The notes beneath the pieces were generated by a model. It was not told the DNA's origin and searched no databases. It saw nothing but the letters and a program-made list of their open reading frames with translations. Positions 5,130-49,889 of a stretch of 64,000 bases of DNA are shown one piece after another. The DNA is taken from NCBI RefSeq assembly GCF_947496985.1, contig NZ_CANMEZ010000003.1, positions 372,001 to 436,000 of the forward strand, in the 5' to 3' direction. The translations under genes were made by a program, and so were the position numbers. The DNA is from an uncultured Kordia sp. (GTDB taxonomy: Bacteria > Bacteroidota > Bacteroidia > Flavobacteriales > Flavobacteriaceae). Numbering within the stretch: the stretch's first letter is position 1; every line of letters starts with the position of its first letter.

Positions 5130-6413
5130 CTAGTGATTATCTTTTGCAATTGTTAATGCGGCTTCATCAATCTTTTGTAAATCGATTTTCGCAATTTCTT
5201 TTACGGCATATTCGTAATCTTCTAAAACATCTTGTTCTTTTGGTTTATTAGCTTTCAATATTTTTTCATATTCAGCCATAAATGGAACAATATCTAATAA
5301 TTTATGATATTCACTAGTGTGTTGTACAGCCGCTTGTGCTGCGAAACGTGCTAAATTTCTCAAATACACAGCATACTTTCCTAAAGCTAATGGCAATACC
5401 AAATTAATGTATTTTAATTTTTCAGAAATTTTATCGTCCATTTCTGTATTAAAAGTACCATCAAGTGTCGTAGACGGACTTATCTGTTGATAGCGATTTA
5501 CAGGAACACCAATAATATTTTTAGTAGCTAATGCATTCAAGGCAGCAGCACTTGCTAAAGTACCAGTAATGGTTTCTGCAGGGTTTGCATCACTTGGTTG
5601 CTTTATATAATCTTGATAAATAGTTGGTATTTTTTCAATATCTTCTTTTTGCCAAGCATGTGGTACTACATCAATAGCATTATGCTGACTTAGATAATAT
5701 ATTTTATCAGCGGCAATTTGTTTTTCATAATACGAAGCAAAAGCTTCATCACCAGGCGTTGGACCTGCCGTTGGAAACGCACCAATAGAGGTCATTCCAT
5801 TCGGATCCCAATCAGATTTTGTATCAGAAAGAAATAGTGCTAAAGTAGGAGACAAGGCACCACCTAAACTATGTCCAGCTACAGCGACTTGCATTCCTGT
5901 TAAGCTAGGGTTTTCACTCAAAAAGTTTTTTAGAGCAGCAGTAACAGTTTCTTTTTTACTGTTTTTCATTTCACGTAAAATAGATAAACCTACATACGTT
6001 CCGTTTGATATATTTCCTGAACTAGGAACTCCAGTTACGGTTTCCCATGATTTGGTAGTATGTACTGAAAAATCTTCTACAAACCAACCAAATGGAGAGT
6101 TTACATTTGTTCCAGCAATCGCAATTACCATTACATTTTCATCCGAATTATAATACATTCCCATAGTGTTATCGGCATGTACAGAAGTGGATGTAGGATC
6201 ATTTGCATACACAATTGGTCCCCAAATTGCTTTCCAATTACCAATAATAGAAGCAGTTTCTGACAGAACAGCTGCCGCTACTTTTTTTATATACGCTTGC
6301 ATTTCAACCATACCGCTTTTGCAATCGGTTTGTTTCCATGATAGGTTAGATGCTGAATTTACTGAGAAAGATAGGCTATAAATTTGTTTTAAAAGTTCAT
6401 TAGATGGATTCAT
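5130..6413 (-). CDS. Lipase class 3 family alpha/beta hydrolase
   Basis: 427 aa. The nucleophile elbow GHSLGGALSPTLALFL (about residues 180-195) is the lipase-3 pentapeptide GxSxG. The later DVVPHAW is a good candidate for part of the Asp/His triad. No signal peptide is visible, so the enzyme is cytoplasmic or exported by another route. Substrates are probably acylglycerols or related esters, but this is family-level inference. It stands alone between two convergent or divergent genes, with its own 200-bp upstream region. Confidence 0.8.
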   Translation of the reverse strand: MNPSNELLKQIYSLSFSVNSASNLSWKQTDCKSGMVEMQAYIKKVAAAVLSETASIIGNWKAIWGPIVYANDPTSTSVHADNTMGMYYNSDENVMVIAIAGTNVNSPFGWFVEDFSVHTTKSWETVTGVPSSGNISNGTYVGLSILREMKNSKKETVTAALKNFLSENPSLTGMQVAVAGHSLGGALSPTLALFLSDTKSDWDPNGMTSIGAFPTAGPTPGDEAFASYYEKQIAADKIYYLSQHNAIDVVPHAWQKEDIEKIPTIYQDYIKQPSDANPAETITGTLASAAALNALATKNIIGVPVNRYQQISPSTTLDGTFNTEMDDKISEKLKYINLVLPLALGKYAVYLRNLARFAAQAAVQHTSEYHKLLDIVPFMAEYEKILKANKPKEQDVLEDYEYAVKEIAKIDLQKIDEAALTIAKDNH

Positions 6414-22006: not shown

Positions 22007-22507
22007 TCATGAAAATAATAAAACCGTATCATCTTCAGATAGTTGCAACTCTTTTTCAAACTGCAAGCCTATTTTGTTAAGCAAACCAATAGATGCCGCA
22101 TTTTTAGTATCAGTAATGGCAACTATTTTTTGAATATTTAAAGTGTCTTTAGCATAATTAAGTGTTGCTTTTGCTGCTTCAAAAGTATATCCTTTTCGTC
22201 CATATTCAGGTAATAAAGCAAAACCAATATCAACATCTTCTAAAGTATCTCTTTTCACTAAACCACACATTCCAATCGGTTTTGAAGTTTCTTTCAATTT
22301 CATAAGCCACAAACCAAAACCATTTGTAGCATAACTTTTCATCAAACTATTTTCAATATAATCTTGCGCAGCTGTTTCAGTTTTAATATTTCGATCACCG
22401 ATAAATTCTATCCAAGTAGGTGTATTAACGAGTTGTATTACAAATGCAACATCTTCTATGATGAATTCACGTAGAACCAGTCGTTCAGTTTCAAGTATAT
22501 TTTTCAA
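22007..22507 (-). CDS. GNAT family N-acetyltransferase (RimJ/RimL-like)
   Basis: 166 aa. It starts with the RimJ/RimL-type signature ETERLVLREFIIEDV and contains GMCGLVKRDTLEDVDIGFAL, LPEYGRKGYTFEA (the acetyl-CoA pyrophosphate loop R/QxxGxG/A, here with GRKGY) and TKNAASIGLLNKIGLQFE. It transfers an acetyl group from acetyl-CoA to an amine on a protein or small molecule; the substrate is unknown. Confidence 0.9.
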   Translation of the reverse strand: MKNILETERLVLREFIIEDVAFVIQLVNTPTWIEFIGDRNIKTETAAQDYIENSLMKSYATNGFGLWLMKLKETSKPIGMCGLVKRDTLEDVDIGFALLPEYGRKGYTFEAAKATLNYAKDTLNIQKIVAITDTKNAASIGLLNKIGLQFEKELQLSEDDTVLLFS

Positions 22508-22574
22508 GAGAATTGTATTAATTCATAAAAATATTGAATTCTATTTCAAACAAAAAACATACAAGACACTATTT

Positions 22575-22590
22575 TTGGCACGATACTTGT
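22575..22590 (+). promoter_or_regulatory. Sigma-54-like promoter of sRNA copy A
   Basis: TTGGCACG-N4-TTG with the -24 GG at 22577-22578 and the -12 G at 22589, the exact GG-N10-G spacing of RpoN promoters. The base after the -12 G is T rather than the usual C. The predicted start falls near 22601. Confidence 0.65.
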
Positions 22591-22600
22591 TTTATATGAT

Positions 22601-22715
22601 AACGTAACGCGGTGAGGACATTACACAGAGCTGGTTACTCGAAGTAAAGAGAGTCGCATTACATTTTGGTTGGTTAGTTTTAAAAAAACACTTCACGCTT
22701 GTGAAGTGTTTTTTT
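22601..22715 (+). ncRNA. Structured sRNA, copy A of four
   Basis: About 115 nt between a sigma-54-like promoter and an intrinsic terminator (stem ACACTTCAC / GTGAAGTGT, loop GCTT, then T7 ending near 22715). It shares with copies B-D the core GAGCTGGTTACT, GTAAAGAGAGTC and TTTTGGTTGGTTAGTTT. A basal helix forms between GTAACGCGG (22604-22612) and the TCGCATTAC just 3' of the GAG core. An internal hairpin TTACT-CGA-AGTAA is present. No open frame is conserved among copies. It is the most diverged member and lies 103 bp upstream of the propeller-LytTR gene. Confidence 0.75.
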
Positions 22716-22818
22716 GTATGTGACATTTACTATGTATTCGTAACTGTTAAATTGATTTTAATATATTAGCTGAGATGTAAAAATATACTTCAATAGCACT
22801 AACCACTTTTAACCACGT

Positions 22819-25416
22819 ATGAATTCTCGATTTTTTACTTTTCTTTTTCTGTGTTTCTTCAAGTTTTCGTTTTCTCAAGATTGTATTTATACTGAATTTG
22901 GTATCAATGACGGATTACCTAGTTTGGAAATATATGATTTGTATCAAGATAAAAACGGTAATATTTGGTCAGCTTCCGATAGAGGATTAGCAGCGTATAA
23001 TGGATATGAATTCAAAGAGTATGGGATTAAAGATGGTATTTTAAATCATGTTATACTTGATTTTTACCCTCAAAAAGACGGAAATATCTATTGTAGTACT
23101 TTTGATAATCAGTTATTTTATTTTAATGAAGAATTTAATGGATTTAAACCGTATGCATACAATTCTATACTGAAACAAGAACTAAGGTTTCAACAACATA
23201 TTAATAGCCTATACGTTGATTCAGAAGGAAGTTTGCATATTAGTTGTGATGTTATGTTTGGCAAACTCATTATTTCTAAAAATGGTGACATCATTGAAAA
23301 ACCTAAACTGTATTCAATAAATGAAAAAAAACGTTATTGGATGGATCTACAAGTTAAGGGAGACGATTCATTTTTTCAATATTATACAAATGATAGTATT
23401 AAAAATGATAAAAATACGCTAAAATTCTCCGTAGATGGAACAATGAATAATGAAGCCATTTTTTTGAAAGGCAGTGAAAATACTGTTTTAAAAAATTCAA
23501 AAGAAATTCGTTTAGTAAATAAATATGGGAATATTGTAAAAACGATAAAAATGGATAACGCTCCAATCTCAATTAAAAAAATAGATGATAATCACTTTTT
23601 TACAGGTTATTTTTTTGGAGGAGGAATTATTAGAGATAAAGATGGAAATATTGTTGAGCATTTTTTAAAAGATAAGTCGGTTTCTGATTTTCTTATAGAT
23701 AATGAAGGTGGTTATTGGTTTTCAACACTTCATAGCGGTATGTTTTATGTAAAAGAACCGAGCATAAAGTTTGTAAAAACCAATGTGCATTCTCCTATAT
23801 GGACATTAACAAAAAATAGTGAAAACGAATTATACGTAGGCTATAGTACTGGTGAAGTAATAAAACTAGATACGAATTACAACACAACATACGAACAAGA
23901 ATTTGCAAATAATTCCAAAGCATTTGTAGAATTTGATGCTATAAACAAGCAACTATACGTGCATTCAAACGAAATCTTTTACAAAAAGAAGCATCAAAGT
24001 GATGCTAAAATCTATTTTAAAGATTCTTTAACCTTGAGTTATGCCGTAAAATTATCAGAACCTTCAACACAAGGAATGGTTATTTCACAACGGTCAAAAT
24101 TTACCATTTTACAAAATGATGCATCAGCAACACATATAACGACACCTTTTAGAACGCAAGATGCTGCAATTTGGAATGATGAAACTTATTTAGGAACGCC
24201 ATTAGGTGTTTATATCTCTAAAAATGATACTATAATTTCTTTGGCAGAAACGAATTCAATATTTAAAAACAGAGTTGATGACATTGATATAAATGAACAA
24301 CGAAAAGAACTCTACTTTGCTACGCTAGGCGCTGGAATTATTCTTTACGATATAGAAACAAAAGAAGTACGAAATATTACTAAACAAGACGGTTTGTCAA
24401 GTGATATTATCAATGAATTATACATTGAAAATAAAAATGAATTGTGGGTTTGTACAAATGCTGGATTAAATAAAATACTGTTTCATGAAAATAATACTTA
24501 TGAAATCACAGGTTTAAAAAGTGTTAATGGTTTATTAAATGATGGAATTAAAGATGTAGAAGTAATCAATAATACCGTTTGGATTGCTTCCAGAAAAGGA
24601 CTCATTCATGCGCCAAAATATTTATTCGATCAAAAAAATGAAACAAATTCATACTATCTCAGAATAAAAAACTGTTTTGTGAATGATATGGTTGCTACAC
24701 CAGAAAAGTTAAAAAATCTGTCGTATACAGAAAATAGATTAGAGTTTTTAGTAGAAGGTGTTTCTTTTAAAAAATCTAATGAATTATTATATAAATATAA
24801 AGTAGAAGGTTTGGATACCAAATGGTATTACACCAAAAATAGAAGCATATCGTATCCTGTGTTACCTTATGGGAATTATACATTTAAAGTTGCAGCCACT
24901 ATTTCTAAAAACAATGAAAATCTAACATTTTTAGAAATTCCTATTCATATAACTGCTCCGTTTTGGAAACAGGCTTGGTTTATCATTTCTGTAATTTTTG
25001 CTATCGGATTATTAATATTTCTATTCTTTAAGTATAGAATTCTTTCTTATAACAGACATATTATACGTGAACTATTACGTTTGATTGTCAAAAAAATTAA
25101 ACGAAAAGAAAAATACTTTACATTCAAAGAGGCTGGTAAAGAAATCAGAATCAAAACAGATACAATTTTATATGTAAAGTCTTCTGGAAACTATATCGAA
25201 TTGATTACAGAAACTAAAAACTATACTATTCGTAAAAAAATAGGAGAGTTCATTGATTTAATGCCAGATCCATTAGAATATTTACGAATTCATCGATCGT
25301 ACATTATACGCATGGAAAAAGTAGCTGAAAAAAATAATAAAGAAGTAACCATTAACGACGAAAAATTACCTGTAAGTAATACGTATGTAGAAGAATTAAA
25401 TAATTTAATTTTTTAG
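22819..25416 (+). CDS. Membrane-tethered beta-propeller LytTR transcriptional regulator
   Basis: 865 aa. Signal peptide (1-19), then two-component-regulator propeller repeats (FGINDGLPSLEIYDLYQDKN, GNIWSASDRGLAAYNG, further DGLSSDIINELYIENKNELW), a Y_Y_Y domain (about 640-710), one membrane helix (WFIISVIFAIGLLIFLFF, about 721-738) and a cytoplasmic LytTR domain (KTDTILYVKSSGNYIELITE, YLRIHRSYIIRMEKV). It lacks histidine kinase and receiver domains, so the propeller sensor is wired directly to the DNA-binding domain. Two GG-leader peptide genes follow at 156 bp, and sRNA copies flank the group. Confidence 0.9.
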   Translation: MNSRFFTFLFLCFFKFSFSQDCIYTEFGINDGLPSLEIYDLYQDKNGNIWSASDRGLAAYNGYEFKEYGIKDGILNHVILDFYPQKDGNIYCSTFDNQLFYFNEEFNGFKPYAYNSILKQELRFQQHINSLYVDSEGSLHISCDVMFGKLIISKNGDIIEKPKLYSINEKKRYWMDLQVKGDDSFFQYYTNDSIKNDKNTLKFSVDGTMNNEAIFLKGSENTVLKNSKEIRLVNKYGNIVKTIKMDNAPISIKKIDDNHFFTGYFFGGGIIRDKDGNIVEHFLKDKSVSDFLIDNEGGYWFSTLHSGMFYVKEPSIKFVKTNVHSPIWTLTKNSENELYVGYSTGEVIKLDTNYNTTYEQEFANNSKAFVEFDAINKQLYVHSNEIFYKKKHQSDAKIYFKDSLTLSYAVKLSEPSTQGMVISQRSKFTILQNDASATHITTPFRTQDAAIWNDETYLGTPLGVYISKNDTIISLAETNSIFKNRVDDIDINEQRKELYFATLGAGIILYDIETKEVRNITKQDGLSSDIINELYIENKNELWVCTNAGLNKILFHENNTYEITGLKSVNGLLNDGIKDVEVINNTVWIASRKGLIHAPKYLFDQKNETNSYYLRIKNCFVNDMVATPEKLKNLSYTENRLEFLVEGVSFKKSNELLYKYKVEGLDTKWYYTKNRSISYPVLPYGNYTFKVAATISKNNENLTFLEIPIHITAPFWKQAWFIISVIFAIGLLIFLFFKYRILSYNRHIIRELLRLIVKKIKRKEKYFTFKEAGKEIRIKTDTILYVKSSGNYIELITETKNYTIRKKIGEFIDLMPDPLEYLRIHRSYIIRMEKVAEKNNKEVTINDEKLPVSNTYVEELNNLIF

Positions 25417-25571
25417 CGCTAAAAATTCATCCCAGAAATATTCAATTTCATCACACTTCATTTTTTATTCATCACTATTTATACGGTAAATCATCACAAA
25501 GCCCTATAAATAGAACGATTTCGTTTTTCATAGCGATACTTTTGAGTTGTTAACTTAAATTTATAACCAAA

Positions 25572-25757
25572 ATGAAAAACCAACAATTCACAACTCTAGA
25601 CAAAGAGTTTACATTACAAATTTTGGGAGGAATTACTGATCCAAACTTGGATCCAGACGCAGGTTATGTAGAACCAGCGGACGATCCTGTATCAACGGAT
25701 GATCCTGTAGATACAACGCCAGTTGATACAGCTCCTGGACCTAGAAGATCACGATAA
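25572..25757 (+). CDS. Double-glycine leader peptide with Asp/Pro/Thr-rich core
   Basis: 61 aa. The first 20 residues look like a leader (MKNQQFTTLDKEFTLQILGG) cut after G19-G20. The core has no cysteine but short repeats (DDPVSTDDPVDTTPVDTAPG) and ends in a basic RRSR. This composition is not that of a lanthipeptide. An ester- or amide-linked peptide rich in acidic and hydroxyl residues is conceivable, but no modification enzyme is encoded in the window. It lies 43 bp upstream of a second leader peptide. Confidence 0.65.
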   Translation: MKNQQFTTLDKEFTLQILGGITDPNLDPDAGYVEPADDPVSTDDPVDTTPVDTAPGPRRSR

Positions 25758-25799
25758 AATTACCTAAACCTAAATACATTAATCTAAACAATTTAAACG

Positions 25800-25988
25800 A
25801 TGAAAAAACAAAACATTAAATCTCTAAAATTAAACAAGAAATCAATTTCTAATTTTCAAATTAATGGTGGGCAACGTCCTACTTCAGCTAATTGTGCACC
25901 TGTAAGATCAGACAATAATCATACTTGCGGACCAATTGAACCTAATTGGGTAAGTATAGGAGGATTTATTTGTTGGGTAACTAATTAA
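25800..25988 (+). CDS. Class I lanthipeptide-like precursor peptide
   Basis: 62 aa. The leader IKSLKLNKKSISNFQINGG has the KLxLNKxxISxL...GG pattern that marks natural-product precursors of Bacteroidetes, often tagged as class I lanthipeptides. Cleavage after G23-G24 would leave a 38-residue core with three cysteines (32, 43, 58) and six Ser/Thr residues (28, 29, 37, 42, 52, 61), adequate for lanthionine rings. No LanB dehydratase, LanC cyclase or peptidase-transporter lies in the window, so processing would rely on enzymes elsewhere. Confidence 0.7.
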   Translation: MKKQNIKSLKLNKKSISNFQINGGQRPTSANCAPVRSDNNHTCGPIEPNWVSIGGFICWVTN

Positions 25989-26128
25989 TACAACTTGCTA
26001 AAAAACTAAGTATTTCGTCTAAAGTCACAAGATAGTATTGCTGTTTTTTTGATGAAATATGTAACTAATCAATCACGAGTAAACAATAATGCTCATTTTG
26101 GCTAAAATTTAATAGTTAACATATTATT

Positions 26129-26144
26129 TTGGCACGGAAGTTGG
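26129..26144 (+). promoter_or_regulatory. Sigma-54-like promoter of sRNA copy B
   Basis: TTGGCACG-GAAG-TTG, -24 GG at 26131-26132 and -12 G at 26143; next base G. Predicted start near 26155. Confidence 0.65.
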
Positions 26145-26154
26145 ATTATATAAA

Positions 26155-26271
26155 ACGTATTATGATGATGACGTTACAAAGAGCTGGTTACTTGCGTAAA
26201 GAGAGTCATAATATAATTTTTGGTTGGTTAGTTTAGTAAAAAAACGTTTCACGCTTGTGAAGCGTTTTTTT
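26155..26271 (+). ncRNA. Structured sRNA, copy B
   Basis: About 117 nt. The basal helix pairs TATTATGA (26158-26165) with TCATAATA (26206-26213), where copies C and D have TACGA with TCGTA: a C-G pair replaced by T-A. Core GAGCTGGTTACTTGCGTAAA includes the hairpin TTAC-TTGC-GTAA. The terminator stem CGTTTCAC / GTGAAGCG with loop GCTT is followed by T7. Confidence 0.8.
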
Positions 26272-26283
26272 GTTAGTGAAACT

Positions 26284-26350
26284 CACCATTGAAAAGTCAG
26301 GATGACGCATTCAATGGTGTAAGTTGAACTAATCCTGCTGTATAGCAGGA
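26284..26350 (+). other. Conserved hairpin pair in spacer of unit B
   Basis: Two perfect hairpins after the sRNA terminator: CACCATTGAA / TTCAATGGTG (26284-26319, 16-nt loop) and TCCTGCT-GTAT-AGCAGGA (26333-26350). Both recur with pair-preserving changes in unit C, so this part may also be an RNA element. Confidence 0.55.
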
Positions 26351-26417
26351 TCTCTTTAAGATTTTCTAACTTTATTTAACAGAATAGTAATTCTTTTTTA
26401 AGGTTTCATACAATATT

Positions 26418-26433
26418 TTGGCACGGAAGTTGT
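26418..26433 (+). promoter_or_regulatory. Sigma-54-like promoter of sRNA copy C
   Basis: TTGGCACG-GAAG-TTG, -24 GG at 26420-26421 and -12 G at 26432; next base T. Predicted start near 26444. Confidence 0.65.
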
Positions 26434-26443
26434 TCTATATAAA

Positions 26444-26558
26444 GTGTATTACGATGATGACAGTACTAAGAGCTGGTTACTTGCGTAAAGAGAGTCGTAT
26501 TACATTTTGGTTGGTTAGTTTAGTAAAAAAACGTTTCACGCTTGTGAAGCGTTTTTTT
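26444..26558 (+). ncRNA. Structured sRNA, copy C
   Basis: About 115 nt. The basal helix TGTA-T-TACGA (26445-26454) pairs with TCGTA-T-TACA (26495-26504), leaving a single T-T mismatch. The core, hairpin and terminator are those of copy B. Confidence 0.8.
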
Positions 26559-26570
26559 GTTATTGAAACT

Positions 26571-26636
26571 CACCATTGAAAAGTCAGTATGACGCACTTA
26601 ATGGTATAAGTTGAACTAACCCTGTTGCATAGCAGG
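26571..26636 (+). other. Conserved hairpin pair in spacer of unit C
   Basis: Counterpart of 26284-26350. The first stem is slightly weaker, and the second is CCTGTT-GCAT-AGCAGG, where a C-G pair became a T-G wobble. Confidence 0.5.
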
Positions 26637-26705
26637 ATCTTTTTAAGATTTTCCTAACTTATATTTAACAATTGTACGATTTTTTTTAAGAAAACGTGTA
26701 ACAAA

Positions 26706-26721
26706 TTGGCACGGAAGTTGT
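26706..26721 (+). promoter_or_regulatory. Sigma-54-like promoter of sRNA copy D
   Basis: TTGGCACG-GAAG-TTG, -24 GG at 26708-26709 and -12 G at 26720; next base T. Predicted start near 26732. Confidence 0.65.
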
Positions 26722-26731
26722 CTTATATAAT

Positions 26732-26850
26732 GTGTATTACGATGATGACAGTACAGAGAGCTGGTTACTTGCGTAAAGAGAGTCGTATTACATTTTGGTT
26801 GGTTAGTTTTTATAAAGCGCTTTATCTTTTGATAAGGCGCTTTTCTTTTT
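26732..26850 (+). ncRNA. Structured sRNA, copy D with a different terminator
   Basis: About 119 nt. The basal helix (26733-26742 with 26783-26792) is as in copy C. The core is unchanged, but the terminator is unrelated to those of A-C: stem GCGCTTTATC / GATAAGGCGC with loop TTTT, then a T-rich tail. It ends 9 bp before the ABC ATPase stop codon on the other strand and may terminate both transcripts. Confidence 0.8.
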
Positions 26851-26858
26851 AGGGAAAA

Positions 26859-27656
26859 TCAATTATTTTTCACCTTAAAACTACCAGAAGTTGCATCAAA
26901 AGTGATCAAATCATTTGGAAATAATGCTTCAAAAATACCTTGTTCAATTAATTCGCAAGGTGTTCCCGAAAATACGTTGCCATCATGCATCACAATCATT
27001 TCATCACACAATTGAATAGCCAAATCAATTTCATGTGTAGAAAACAACATCGTTTTTTTTGTGTCGTGTGCTAATTTTTTGAGTAAATTCAACACATATG
27101 CTTTATGATACATATCTAAATGTGTAGTGGGTTCATCCAAAATAATCATGGAAGTATCTTGCGCCAAAGCACGTGCAATCATTACTTTTTGCAACTGTCC
27201 ATCACTTAAGGTGTAACACTTTCTATGCTTTAATTCTTGCAAATTGGTTTTTCGCAAAGCACTTTCAATAATGGTATGATCATGCTTTGAAAGATTTCCA
27301 ATCCAATTGGTATAGGGTTGGCGTCCAAGCGCGATTAATTCCAATACAGTCAAATTTTTAGATGGTAATTGTTCCGTTAATACCAAACCAATTTCTTTTG
27401 CTAAATCACCATTTGAATAGGAGTGAAGCGACTTGTTTTGCAATAAAACTTCTCCTGTAAGTGGTTGTTGAATTTTGGCTAACGTACGTAATAACGTAGA
27501 TTTTCCAATTCCATTAGCTCCAACCAATGCAACTAATTTCCCTTTAGAAATACTAAAATTAATAGCTTCCGCAATCACTTTTGTATTGTTCTTATCTTGA
27601 TAACCAATACTTAGTGCTGTAGCTTGTAAAACTGGATATGTGTTTGTTGTAGAAAT
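26859..27656 (-). CDS. ABC transporter ATPase, probable vitamin B12 importer (BtuD-like)
   Basis: 265 aa if read from an ATT at 27656. Walker A GANGIGKST, Q-loop region LVLTEQLPSKNLTV, signature LSDGQLQKVMIARALAQ, Walker B MIILDEP, switch His FSTHEID. The conventional start would be the GTG at 27578 (239 aa), but that removes the first strand VLQATALSIGY that homologues have. No ATG, GTG or TTG exists upstream in frame before the stop. It energises the permease encoded just upstream. B12 is inferred from the divergent riboswitch and receptor; a siderophore is the alternative. Confidence 0.85.
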   Translation of the reverse strand: MSTTNTYPVLQATALSIGYQDKNNTKVIAEAINFSISKGKLVALVGANGIGKSTLLRTLAKIQQPLTGEVLLQNKSLHSYSNGDLAKEIGLVLTEQLPSKNLTVLELIALGRQPYTNWIGNLSKHDHTIIESALRKTNLQELKHRKCYTLSDGQLQKVMIARALAQDTSMIILDEPTTHLDMYHKAYVLNLLKKLAHDTKKTMLFSTHEIDLAIQLCDEMIVMHDGNVFSGTPCELIEQGIFEALFPNDLITFDATSGSFKVKNN

Positions 27657-30038: not shown

Positions 30039-30046
30039 TATTTTTG
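30039..30046 (+). promoter_or_regulatory. Bacteroidetes-type -7 box for the riboswitch transcript
   Basis: TATTTTTG, matching TAnnTTTG, placed just before the 5' end of the cobalamin riboswitch. The -33 element is weak. Confidence 0.55.
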
Positions 30047-30052
30047 CGCCGA

Positions 30053-30265
30053 ATTTTGGTTTCAAACATACAATAGTATGTGCGAATTAAAAGGGAATCA
30101 AGTGAAAAGGTAGCAAACCTTCATTCTTGAACTGTTCCCGCAACTGTAAACATGTGCTGATATTGTTCAGTACCTCATTTCAAAAATGAGTTGTTATAAC
30201 TACAAGACCACTGAATATTCGGGAAGGTATATAGCAAATTGTAAGTCAGGAGACCTGCCAATTTT
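30053..30265 (+). promoter_or_regulatory. Cobalamin (adenosylcobalamin) riboswitch
   Basis: Contains the class-defining blocks in order: AAAAGGGAATCAAGTGAAAA (30089 onward), TTCCCGCAACTGTAAAC (about 30133) and the B12 box AAGTCAGGAGACCTGCC (30243-30259). The outer ends TTGG and CCAA can pair as P1. It controls the TonB receptor that begins 77 bp downstream; B12 binding normally lowers expression. An open frame through the aptamer (ATG at 30186) is incidental. Confidence 0.95.
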
Positions 30266-30341
30266 TCAAATGAAATGTCAAACTTTCGGGATAAAAGTTT
30301 GCGTATGGAAACCCATACTTTTTCCCATAAAACGAAAACAA

Positions 30342-49430: not shown

Positions 49431-49889
49431 GTTTTGGCGTAAATTGAGTTAAGAATTACTGCAATATAAGTGTTAGGATATTATTTTCATACCTAGAAAT
49501 AGTGAATAGCGTAAAAAACAACAACTACATCGATTGAGTTAATTATTTTCTTAATAAAAAGTTCTTAGTAAAACGATTATATTAATCATTTATAACCAAA
49601 ATGATTAGGATTTATATGATAACTGAATATATGTTTTTTTAAATCTCAGTGTTAAAAATCTTATGTAGAATTTTGATGTTGGTTAAGTTTATTATAGATT
49701 TGATACGACTAGTAGTATTGAGTTTATGTAGTTTATATATAAAGAAGCTACAAAATATACAAACTCTTTACAGTTCCCAAGCAAGATTCAATATATTATT
49801 AGCAAGTGGAGACTTGACTCCATTGAAAAAAACGGGGCGAAACCAAAAAGCCATACGAGTAGGACAAAATAATAATAAAAAAACTAACA
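49431..49889 (+). other. 459-bp region upstream of the TM2 operon
   Basis: No convincing gene; a frame starting with GTG near 49649 has no domain features and runs into the TM2 gene. A small hairpin TGGAG-ACTTGA-CTCCA lies at 49807-49822, followed by AACGGGGCGAAACC, which is G-rich against the surroundings and could belong to a leader RNA. Confidence 0.4.

Follow-up and report, generated by a model that had tools for sequence, protein, structure and literature searches.

A family of putative sigma-54-dependent small RNAs with a near-invariant tail in Kordia and other Flavobacteriaceae

Four similar intergenic loci in the genome of an uncultured Kordia sp. provoke a question: do they specify a family of small RNAs (sRNAs) driven by sigma-54? 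The loci, designated copies A to D, lie in a stretch of 64,000 nucleotides (contig NZ_CANMEZ010000003.1, positions 372,001 to 436,000; hereafter “the window”). A first-pass annotation made from the sequence alone had described them as sharing a layout of promoter, core and terminator and as falling between genes, and both descriptions hold. The promoter sequence TTGGCACGNNNNTTG occurs without mismatch at 22575, 26129, 26418 and 26706, always on the + strand. Fourteen other matches in the window each have two mismatches, and the resulting total of 18 (at two or fewer mismatches) was reached in 1 of 100 shuffles. An 80-nt core lies 3′ of each of the four sites, with 61 of 85 alignment columns invariant, and a terminator-like hairpin is found 3′ of every core. 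All four copies are intergenic relative to the listed open reading frames (ORFs). Copies B, C and D stand in tandem, spaced by about 288 nt; because each carries a repeated flank of 182 nt, the likeness among these three is partly the product of duplication.

Promoter and fold of the copies

The family had been thought to number four. That count is correct for the window, but a BLAST search of the same genome added a fifth, designated copy E, on a different contig (C13:27488). A covariance model (R1) was constructed from these five cores, with the promoter and terminator left out. When genomes were searched with it, a kind of check that the first-pass annotation had proposed, 50 copies were recovered from 11 of 11 Kordia genomes (4–6 per genome), and five more came from 3 of 285 other genomes (G158, G178 and G078), representing three genera; G078 has three copies in tandem. 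These 55 copies constitute the set analyzed below. The Kordia members were sorted into A-, B-, C/D- and E-types by our own assignment.

The motif TGG(C/T)A(C/T)-N5-TTG is present upstream of 54 of the 55 copies, with the T of TGG located 24 or 25 nt before the model start; the earlier placement of the predicted start at the 5′ edge of the basal helix is thus corroborated. Since R1 was built without the promoter, this evidence is independent of the model search. The sole exception, the middle copy of the tandem triplet in G078 (L073:4419-4505), has kept its hairpin and tail and is perhaps a decaying copy.

The Kordia genome also encodes the requisite machinery. It has one rpoN and ten PF00158 matches above the cut-off, three of which are strong (221–242 bits) and were confirmed as activators. 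The first is a response regulator adjoining a mechanosensitive-channel gene; the second, which has no receiver domain, is encoded upstream of the LptE, SecG and chaperonin-60 genes; and the third is a response regulator adjoining a histidine kinase. As regards sigma-54-dependent sRNAs, then, a promoter at the right distance was found together with RpoN and AAA+ activators. The co-occurrence of rpoN with the RNA was also considered as support and set aside as uninformative, rpoN being present in 394 of 397 Flavobacteriaceae genomes.

Other candidate sigma-54 promoters were sought in the same genome. TGGCACN5TTG occurs at 26 sites, vs. 3 for the reversed pattern. Beyond the five sRNA promoters there are 21 such sites, 15 within ORFs and six outside. 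One of the six lies 144 nt before the gene for Lon (identified by Pfam), four lie 44–89 nt before ORFs that by our reading resemble secreted proteins or lipoproteins (reverse-strand 926 and 1991 of L092, and one each at L096 and L103), and the sixth has no ORF near it. In Flavobacterium psychrophilum, 5′-end sequencing is described as placing sigma-54 motifs at groESL, lon, dnaK, clpB, the gliding operon and a putative RNA, Rfp36, and three sigma-54 activators are reported there as well (PMC9723704). As described in that source, the regulon includes Lon, as at the Kordia site, and a putative RNA.

The sequences upstream of the promoters differ among paralogue types. Of the 18 C/D-type copies, 17 have TTTAACA no more than 90 nt upstream, vs. 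0 of 32 other Kordia copies, an exploratory comparison in which the motif was chosen after looking and the tandem duplicates are not independent. A- and B-type copies have other shared upstream blocks, which are perhaps separate activator sites.

Folding with the loop held open gave a hairpin composed of P1, an internal loop with a conserved GAC, P2, P3 and a 7-nt CUGGUUA loop. This arrangement (model R2) replaced the hairpin first contained in R1, a TTAC/GTAA stem that proved to be wrong. All 55 copies were aligned to R2 for pair counts: 90.2% of cells were paired, vs. 78.1% in shuffles; two-sided (compensatory) changes were present at 14 of 16 pairs; and none of 500 shuffles reached any of the five observed pairing measures. 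Controls with slid partners paired in 25–44% of cells vs. 90%. Pairing was weakest in P2 (78.6% of cells). These counts lean towards structure, because the alignment followed R2 and the copies are related by descent. In a sequence-only alignment, a G-test with average product correction ranked two P1 pairs, 12-60 and 13-59, first; the signals ranked third and fourth are not structure pairs, and such signals are interspersed with those of P2. The fold predicted for a single copy is only modestly stable (z of −1.5 to −2.5 when the terminator is included and +0.5 to +1.9 when it is left out), and the case for structure therefore rests on covariation.

The loop and the tail, both predicted to be unpaired, hardly vary. 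Of the 55 copies, 53 have the tail GGTTGGTTAG without any change, and it is kept where the hairpin differs; the loop motif TGGTTAC is likewise found in 53. In a home-made test, a terminator-like hairpin was present in all 55 copies vs. 295 of 2000 random control windows. What comparison of the copies shows is the gene layout, the predicted RNA fold, and a loop and tail that stay nearly the same. Together with the promoters, the covariation, rpoN and the three activators, these observations bear out, at the level of sequence, the original proposal of an sRNA family behind sigma-54-like promoters; the copies are very probably transcribed, and dependent on sigma-54 for it.

Distribution and genomic setting

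How far does this RNA extend beyond Kordia? We searched with a pattern that combines promoter, spacing and tail, TTGGCA-N6-TTG-N{66,96}-GGTTGGTTAG. It was found in 97 of 397 Flavobacteriaceae genomes, covering 65 of 237 genera, with no occurrence of the reversed-pattern control. In a sample of the class it occurred in 3 of 395 genomes (the Kordia genome itself, one other family member and one outsider); outside the Flavobacteriaceae it was present in 1 of 381 genomes, where the sequence is unlike. Loci from 35 of the 97 positive genomes were inspected. The hairpin is very variable among them, the loop is often GUGGUUACY and is missing in several, and a terminator, judged by eye, lies 3′ of the tail. 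Thirty-one of these loci occupy the setting of copy E, that is, one syntenic locus. A second common setting, between ORFs of 756–767 and 422–427 aa, was observed at L126, L131 and L138, and L141 resembles neither. The loci in the second setting form a class of their own, with a sigma-54-type promoter and the same tail but without the GUGGUUAC loop.

Copy E itself has a Band_7 gene on one side and an AlkB-like gene on the other; genes for D-Ala-D-Ala dipeptidase, DUF819 and DUF4369 proteins are close by. In this genome only short ORFs represent the AlkB-like gene (L012, ~5740-6176), which is whole in L075. Because the copies of the three non-Kordia genera share the setting of E, this locus is probably ancestral, and the window cluster is probably a Kordia expansion. 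For a tree of the paralogues the alignment offered too few columns, and 6 of the 51 inner branches were starred. These comparisons support an RNA that is distributed across the Flavobacteriaceae and of which Kordia has an amplified form. As apparently the same RNA is present in many related genera, it is probably an unrecognized regulator of the family.

The cluster in the window is flanked by a GNAT gene and an ABC-transporter ATPase gene, a setting largely shared by the other Kordia loci, mostly with the LytTR regulator. This 865-aa protein, whose gene lies between copies A and B, is a frequent but inconstant neighbor of the copies in Kordia; matches to it were found in K. zhangzhouensis and in one Kordia metagenome-assembled genome. 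Copy A precedes its gene by ~100 nt on the same strand, as might be expected were the element a leader or attenuator acting in cis on the downstream gene. Yet the copies persist at L062, L063, L064 and L066, where the regulator was not found; at L066 another large ORF, of 1619 aa, stands in its place between the sRNA copies (L066:7041-11900). Moreover, copy D faces the ABC-transporter gene of the opposite strand, copy E sits between genes of the other strand, and every copy has its own terminator-like hairpin. We thus consider a cis-acting element highly improbable. Even less credible is a mobile or passive intergenic repeat: the tandem copies with their 182-nt flanks and the 4–6 copies per genome would suit it, but the copies recur at syntenic sites within Kordia and between genera, and their constant promoter and terminator, as well as the covariation, argue against passivity.

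Coding potential, mode of action and known RNAs

In the mechanism that we propose, each copy is likely an independent gene for a noncoding RNA. RNA polymerase bearing sigma-54 (RpoN), with an enhancer-binding activator, would initiate ~12 nt past the TTG of the −24/−12 promoter and produce a predicted RNA of about 115–120 nt. The transcript would fold as one long irregular hairpin tipped by the CUGGUUA loop, followed by a single-stranded UUUUGGUUGGUUAG tail, and would be ended by its own terminator. Kordia would have multiplied the ancestral copy, yielding paralogue types with different upstream elements; because the types differ in this manner, one RNA output may answer several signals. A trans-acting sRNA that works via its single-stranded tail, perhaps with the loop contributing, appears most likely, and we regard this mode of action with considerable confidence.

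Several observations weigh against this reading or narrow it. In sigma-54 promoters a C usually follows the TTG; here it does so in just one copy of 54, so that these promoters differ from the textbook consensus. A comparison of upstream regions disclosed no activator site common to the copies. The promoter-and-tail pattern is absent from 300 of the 397 Flavobacteriaceae genomes, and the constancy of the tail among the positive ones exists by construction, as the tail is part of the search pattern. A DUF819 neighbor was located in 25 of 30 sampled pattern-negative genomes; two of these 25 flanks (L164 and L165) hold a variant with the same tail, and the remaining 23 showed no tail within the ~1.5 kb fetched on each side. 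In 27 of the 55 copies, a GCT-GGT-TAC frame has an upstream ATG and is open into the tail. Finally, the complement of the tail (12 nt, one mismatch or fewer) was not enriched across the 11 Kordia genomes: there were 63 occurrences vs. 51 for the reversed sequence in the genome under study and fewer than in the control in the ten others, with the sRNA copies themselves included in the counts. The last result speaks against long pairing targets; seeds of 6–8 nt fall outside that test.

Could the transcript instead be a small sigma-54-dependent messenger, encoding a peptide in some copies? The claim that no reading frame is conserved stands for the family as a whole, but ATG frames of 24, 41 and 36 codons run across the core in copies B, C and D, respectively (copy A has none in that frame). 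An ATG lies upstream in every one of the 27 B- and C/D-type Kordia copies, 21 of which are open into the tail; both features are present in 5 of 11 E-type copies. The candidate peptides begin MMTV-RAGYLRKES... (B-, C- and D-type) and MTFSKAGYFL... (some E-type). Much else is at odds with translation. A frame that is open from end to end exists in only 21 of the 55 cores (0, 4 and 18 by loop-set frame, double counts being possible), and the distance between loop and tail, 33 to 42, does not keep to multiples of three. No A-type copy (0 of 12) combines an ATG with an open frame, and 11 of the 12 have a stop before the tail; an ATG is lacking in 6 of 11 E-type copies; and among the five non-Kordia copies, four have a stop before the tail and one has both ATG and open frame. 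Even copies of one type do not agree on the frame in which the tail is read; each type uses two or three. There is no excess of variation at third positions (variable columns at positions 1/2/3: 1/5/6 for E, 4/3/3 for B and 2/5/4 for C/D), and the compensatory pair changes in the hairpin also speak against a peptide messenger. A noncoding RNA is thus preferred; a peptide messenger is very unlikely, although some copies could yield a peptide.

A second question is what the tail would do. CsrB-type RNAs sequester an RNA-binding protein through repeated motifs, and UGGUU is repeated in the Kordia RNA, once in the loop and twice, overlapping, in the tail. The RNA could accordingly titrate a protein, with copy number setting the dose. 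That the same short motif is preserved in loop and tail while the stems change accords with this notion, and the unenriched tail complement and the multiple copies per genome are compatible with it. So is the result for Hfq (PF17209), which was found in 0 of 11 Kordia genomes by a profile that matched 5 of 14 control genomes. In Bacteroides, the protein RbpB is described as binding unpaired stretches in the members of a multicopy sRNA family (PMC11697453). On the other hand, no protein is known to bind the UGGUU motif, and some three motifs per RNA are, in our judgment, few for a sponge. Titration is therefore possible but rather doubtful, and we narrowly favor the pairing of a short seed in the tail with AACC-containing mRNA segments over the holding of a protein.

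Is the RNA already known under another name? A covariance search of the window and 15 related loci against Rfam yielded no family at gathering on the copies. A match to Flavo-1 had been suggested; this motif, which is included in Rfam, gave none at gathering in the window or the 15 loci, nor any at E ≤ 10 in 22500-26900. The Qrr and GlmY/GlmZ families, likewise included, produced none at threshold on the copies. Sub-threshold lines for RefA9 (35.5 bits vs. 49), SpF11 (21.6 vs. 54) and Chlorobi-1 (17.5 vs. 50) all fell on the terminator of copy A and were rejected. GlmY and GlmZ are sigma-54-dependent sRNA genes of enterobacteria; the Kordia copies are very probably of the same sigma-54-dependent class but do not match them in Rfam, and they form a tandem family rather than a pair. 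Literature searches turned up no report of this RNA.

Closer to Kordia, Flavo-1 is described as an RNA motif of the Flavobacteriaceae (PMC9723704); it shares that family with the Kordia RNA but not a covariance match. The first-pass annotation knew of no such multicopy family in Flavobacteria, but a sigma-54-driven putative RNA is already in print: Rfp36 (THC0290_N_0510) of F. psychrophilum, presented as a putative regulatory RNA whose mapped start has a sigma-54 motif (PMC9723704, the sole flavobacterial source that a literature search on Rfp36 returned). Compared by description only, it is likewise a sigma-54-type putative RNA from the same bacterial family, and it may be the first transcribed member of the RNA family.

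Two multicopy families invite comparison. Qrr1-5 of Vibrio are described as sRNAs under sigma-54 and LuxO, with extra upstream sites at some paralogues only (PMC2680268). The Kordia copies share the promoter type and the multiplicity; they differ in having no Rfam match, no Hfq found and a different phylum. The Kordia RNA thus resembles Qrr yet is not a Qrr. FopS/GibS of Bacteroides thetaiotaomicron is described as a multicopy paralogous sRNA family of the Bacteroidaceae with a conserved single-stranded segment, a terminator, canonical housekeeping-type promoters and a seed in the 5′ part (PMC11697453). As far as that description goes, the likeness lies in a multicopy Bacteroidota family with a conserved single-stranded segment and terminator, whereas the Kordia RNA has a sigma-54-type promoter and a 5′ hairpin where FopS has a housekeeping-type promoter and a single-stranded 5′ part.

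Post-transcriptional control in the Flavobacteriaceae is, in our judgment, little known. An RNA gene that occupies the same locus in many genera and combines a strict promoter with a tail that hardly varies offers a handle on how sRNAs work in this family and on what its sigma-54 system produces. The Kordia array may be an independent parallel to Qrr and is useful for examining why bacteria multiply sigma-54 sRNAs: Kordia may have Qrr-like multiplicity without Hfq, with one output serving several signals. Tentatively, we propose that this Hfq-independent RNA, with its variable hairpin and near-invariant tail, could be the RNA arm of an envelope/protein-quality sigma-54 response across the Flavobacteriaceae. 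A new RNA-binding protein or a short-seed pairing rule would read the tail, and Kordia would have a Qrr-like multi-input array with paralogue-specific upstream modules.

Features of the window

Coordinates of the sRNA features and of the intervening regulator gene are compiled below.

Table 1. Predicted sRNA features and the LytTR regulator gene, in window coordinates.
Feature	Position	Strand	Basis
Copy A sigma-54-type −24/−12 promoter, TTGGCACGATACTTG	22575..22589	+	exact match
Copy A predicted sRNA, ~+1 to terminator end	22601..22716	+	covariance model, 95.3 bits
Copy A apical loop CTGGTTA, 7 nt, conserved	22631..22637	+	sequence
Copy A conserved single-stranded tail, TTTTGGTTGGTTAG	22664..22677	+	sequence
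Copy A intrinsic terminator	22681..22716	+	folding and hairpin test
865-aa LytTR / Reg_prop / Y_Y_Y regulator	22819..25416	+	
Copy B sigma-54-type promoter, TTGGCACGGAAGTTG	26129..26143	+	exact match
Copy B predicted sRNA	26155..26273	+	covariance model, 95.8 bits
Copy B apical loop CTGGTTA	26184..26190	+	sequence
Copy B tail, TTTTTGGTTGGTTAG	26217..26231	+	sequence
Copy B intrinsic terminator	26237..26272	+	folding
Copy C sigma-54-type promoter, TTGGCACGGAAGTTG	26418..26432	+	exact match
Copy C predicted sRNA	26444..26560	+	covariance model, 105.9 bits
Copy C apical loop CTGGTTA	26473..26479	+	sequence
Copy C tail, TTTTGGTTGGTTAG	26505..26518	+	sequence
Copy C intrinsic terminator	26524..26559	+	folding
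Copy D sigma-54-type promoter, TTGGCACGGAAGTTG	26706..26720	+	exact match
Copy D predicted sRNA	26732..26852	+	covariance model, 107.6 bits
Copy D apical loop CTGGTTA	26761..26767	+	sequence
Copy D tail, TTTTGGTTGGTTAG	26793..26806	+	sequence
Copy D intrinsic terminator	26814..26843	+	hairpin check

Two short peptides with GG-type leader-like stretches are encoded on the + strand beside the sRNA cluster (25572-25757 and 25800-25988), and similar ones are found near copy E and at other Kordia loci; we take them to resemble the leader peptides of modified peptides.

A cobalamin riboswitch (30040-30276, + strand, 79.2 bits) overlaps the start of an ORF that we read as TonB-receptor-like. It adjoins, on the opposite strand, what our reading of the ORFs suggests is a B12 ABC uptake operon; because of this proximity, the ABC-transporter ATPase gene beside the cluster probably serves B12 uptake. 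A DUF805 RNA motif was identified at 49801-49869 on the + strand (68.9 bits).

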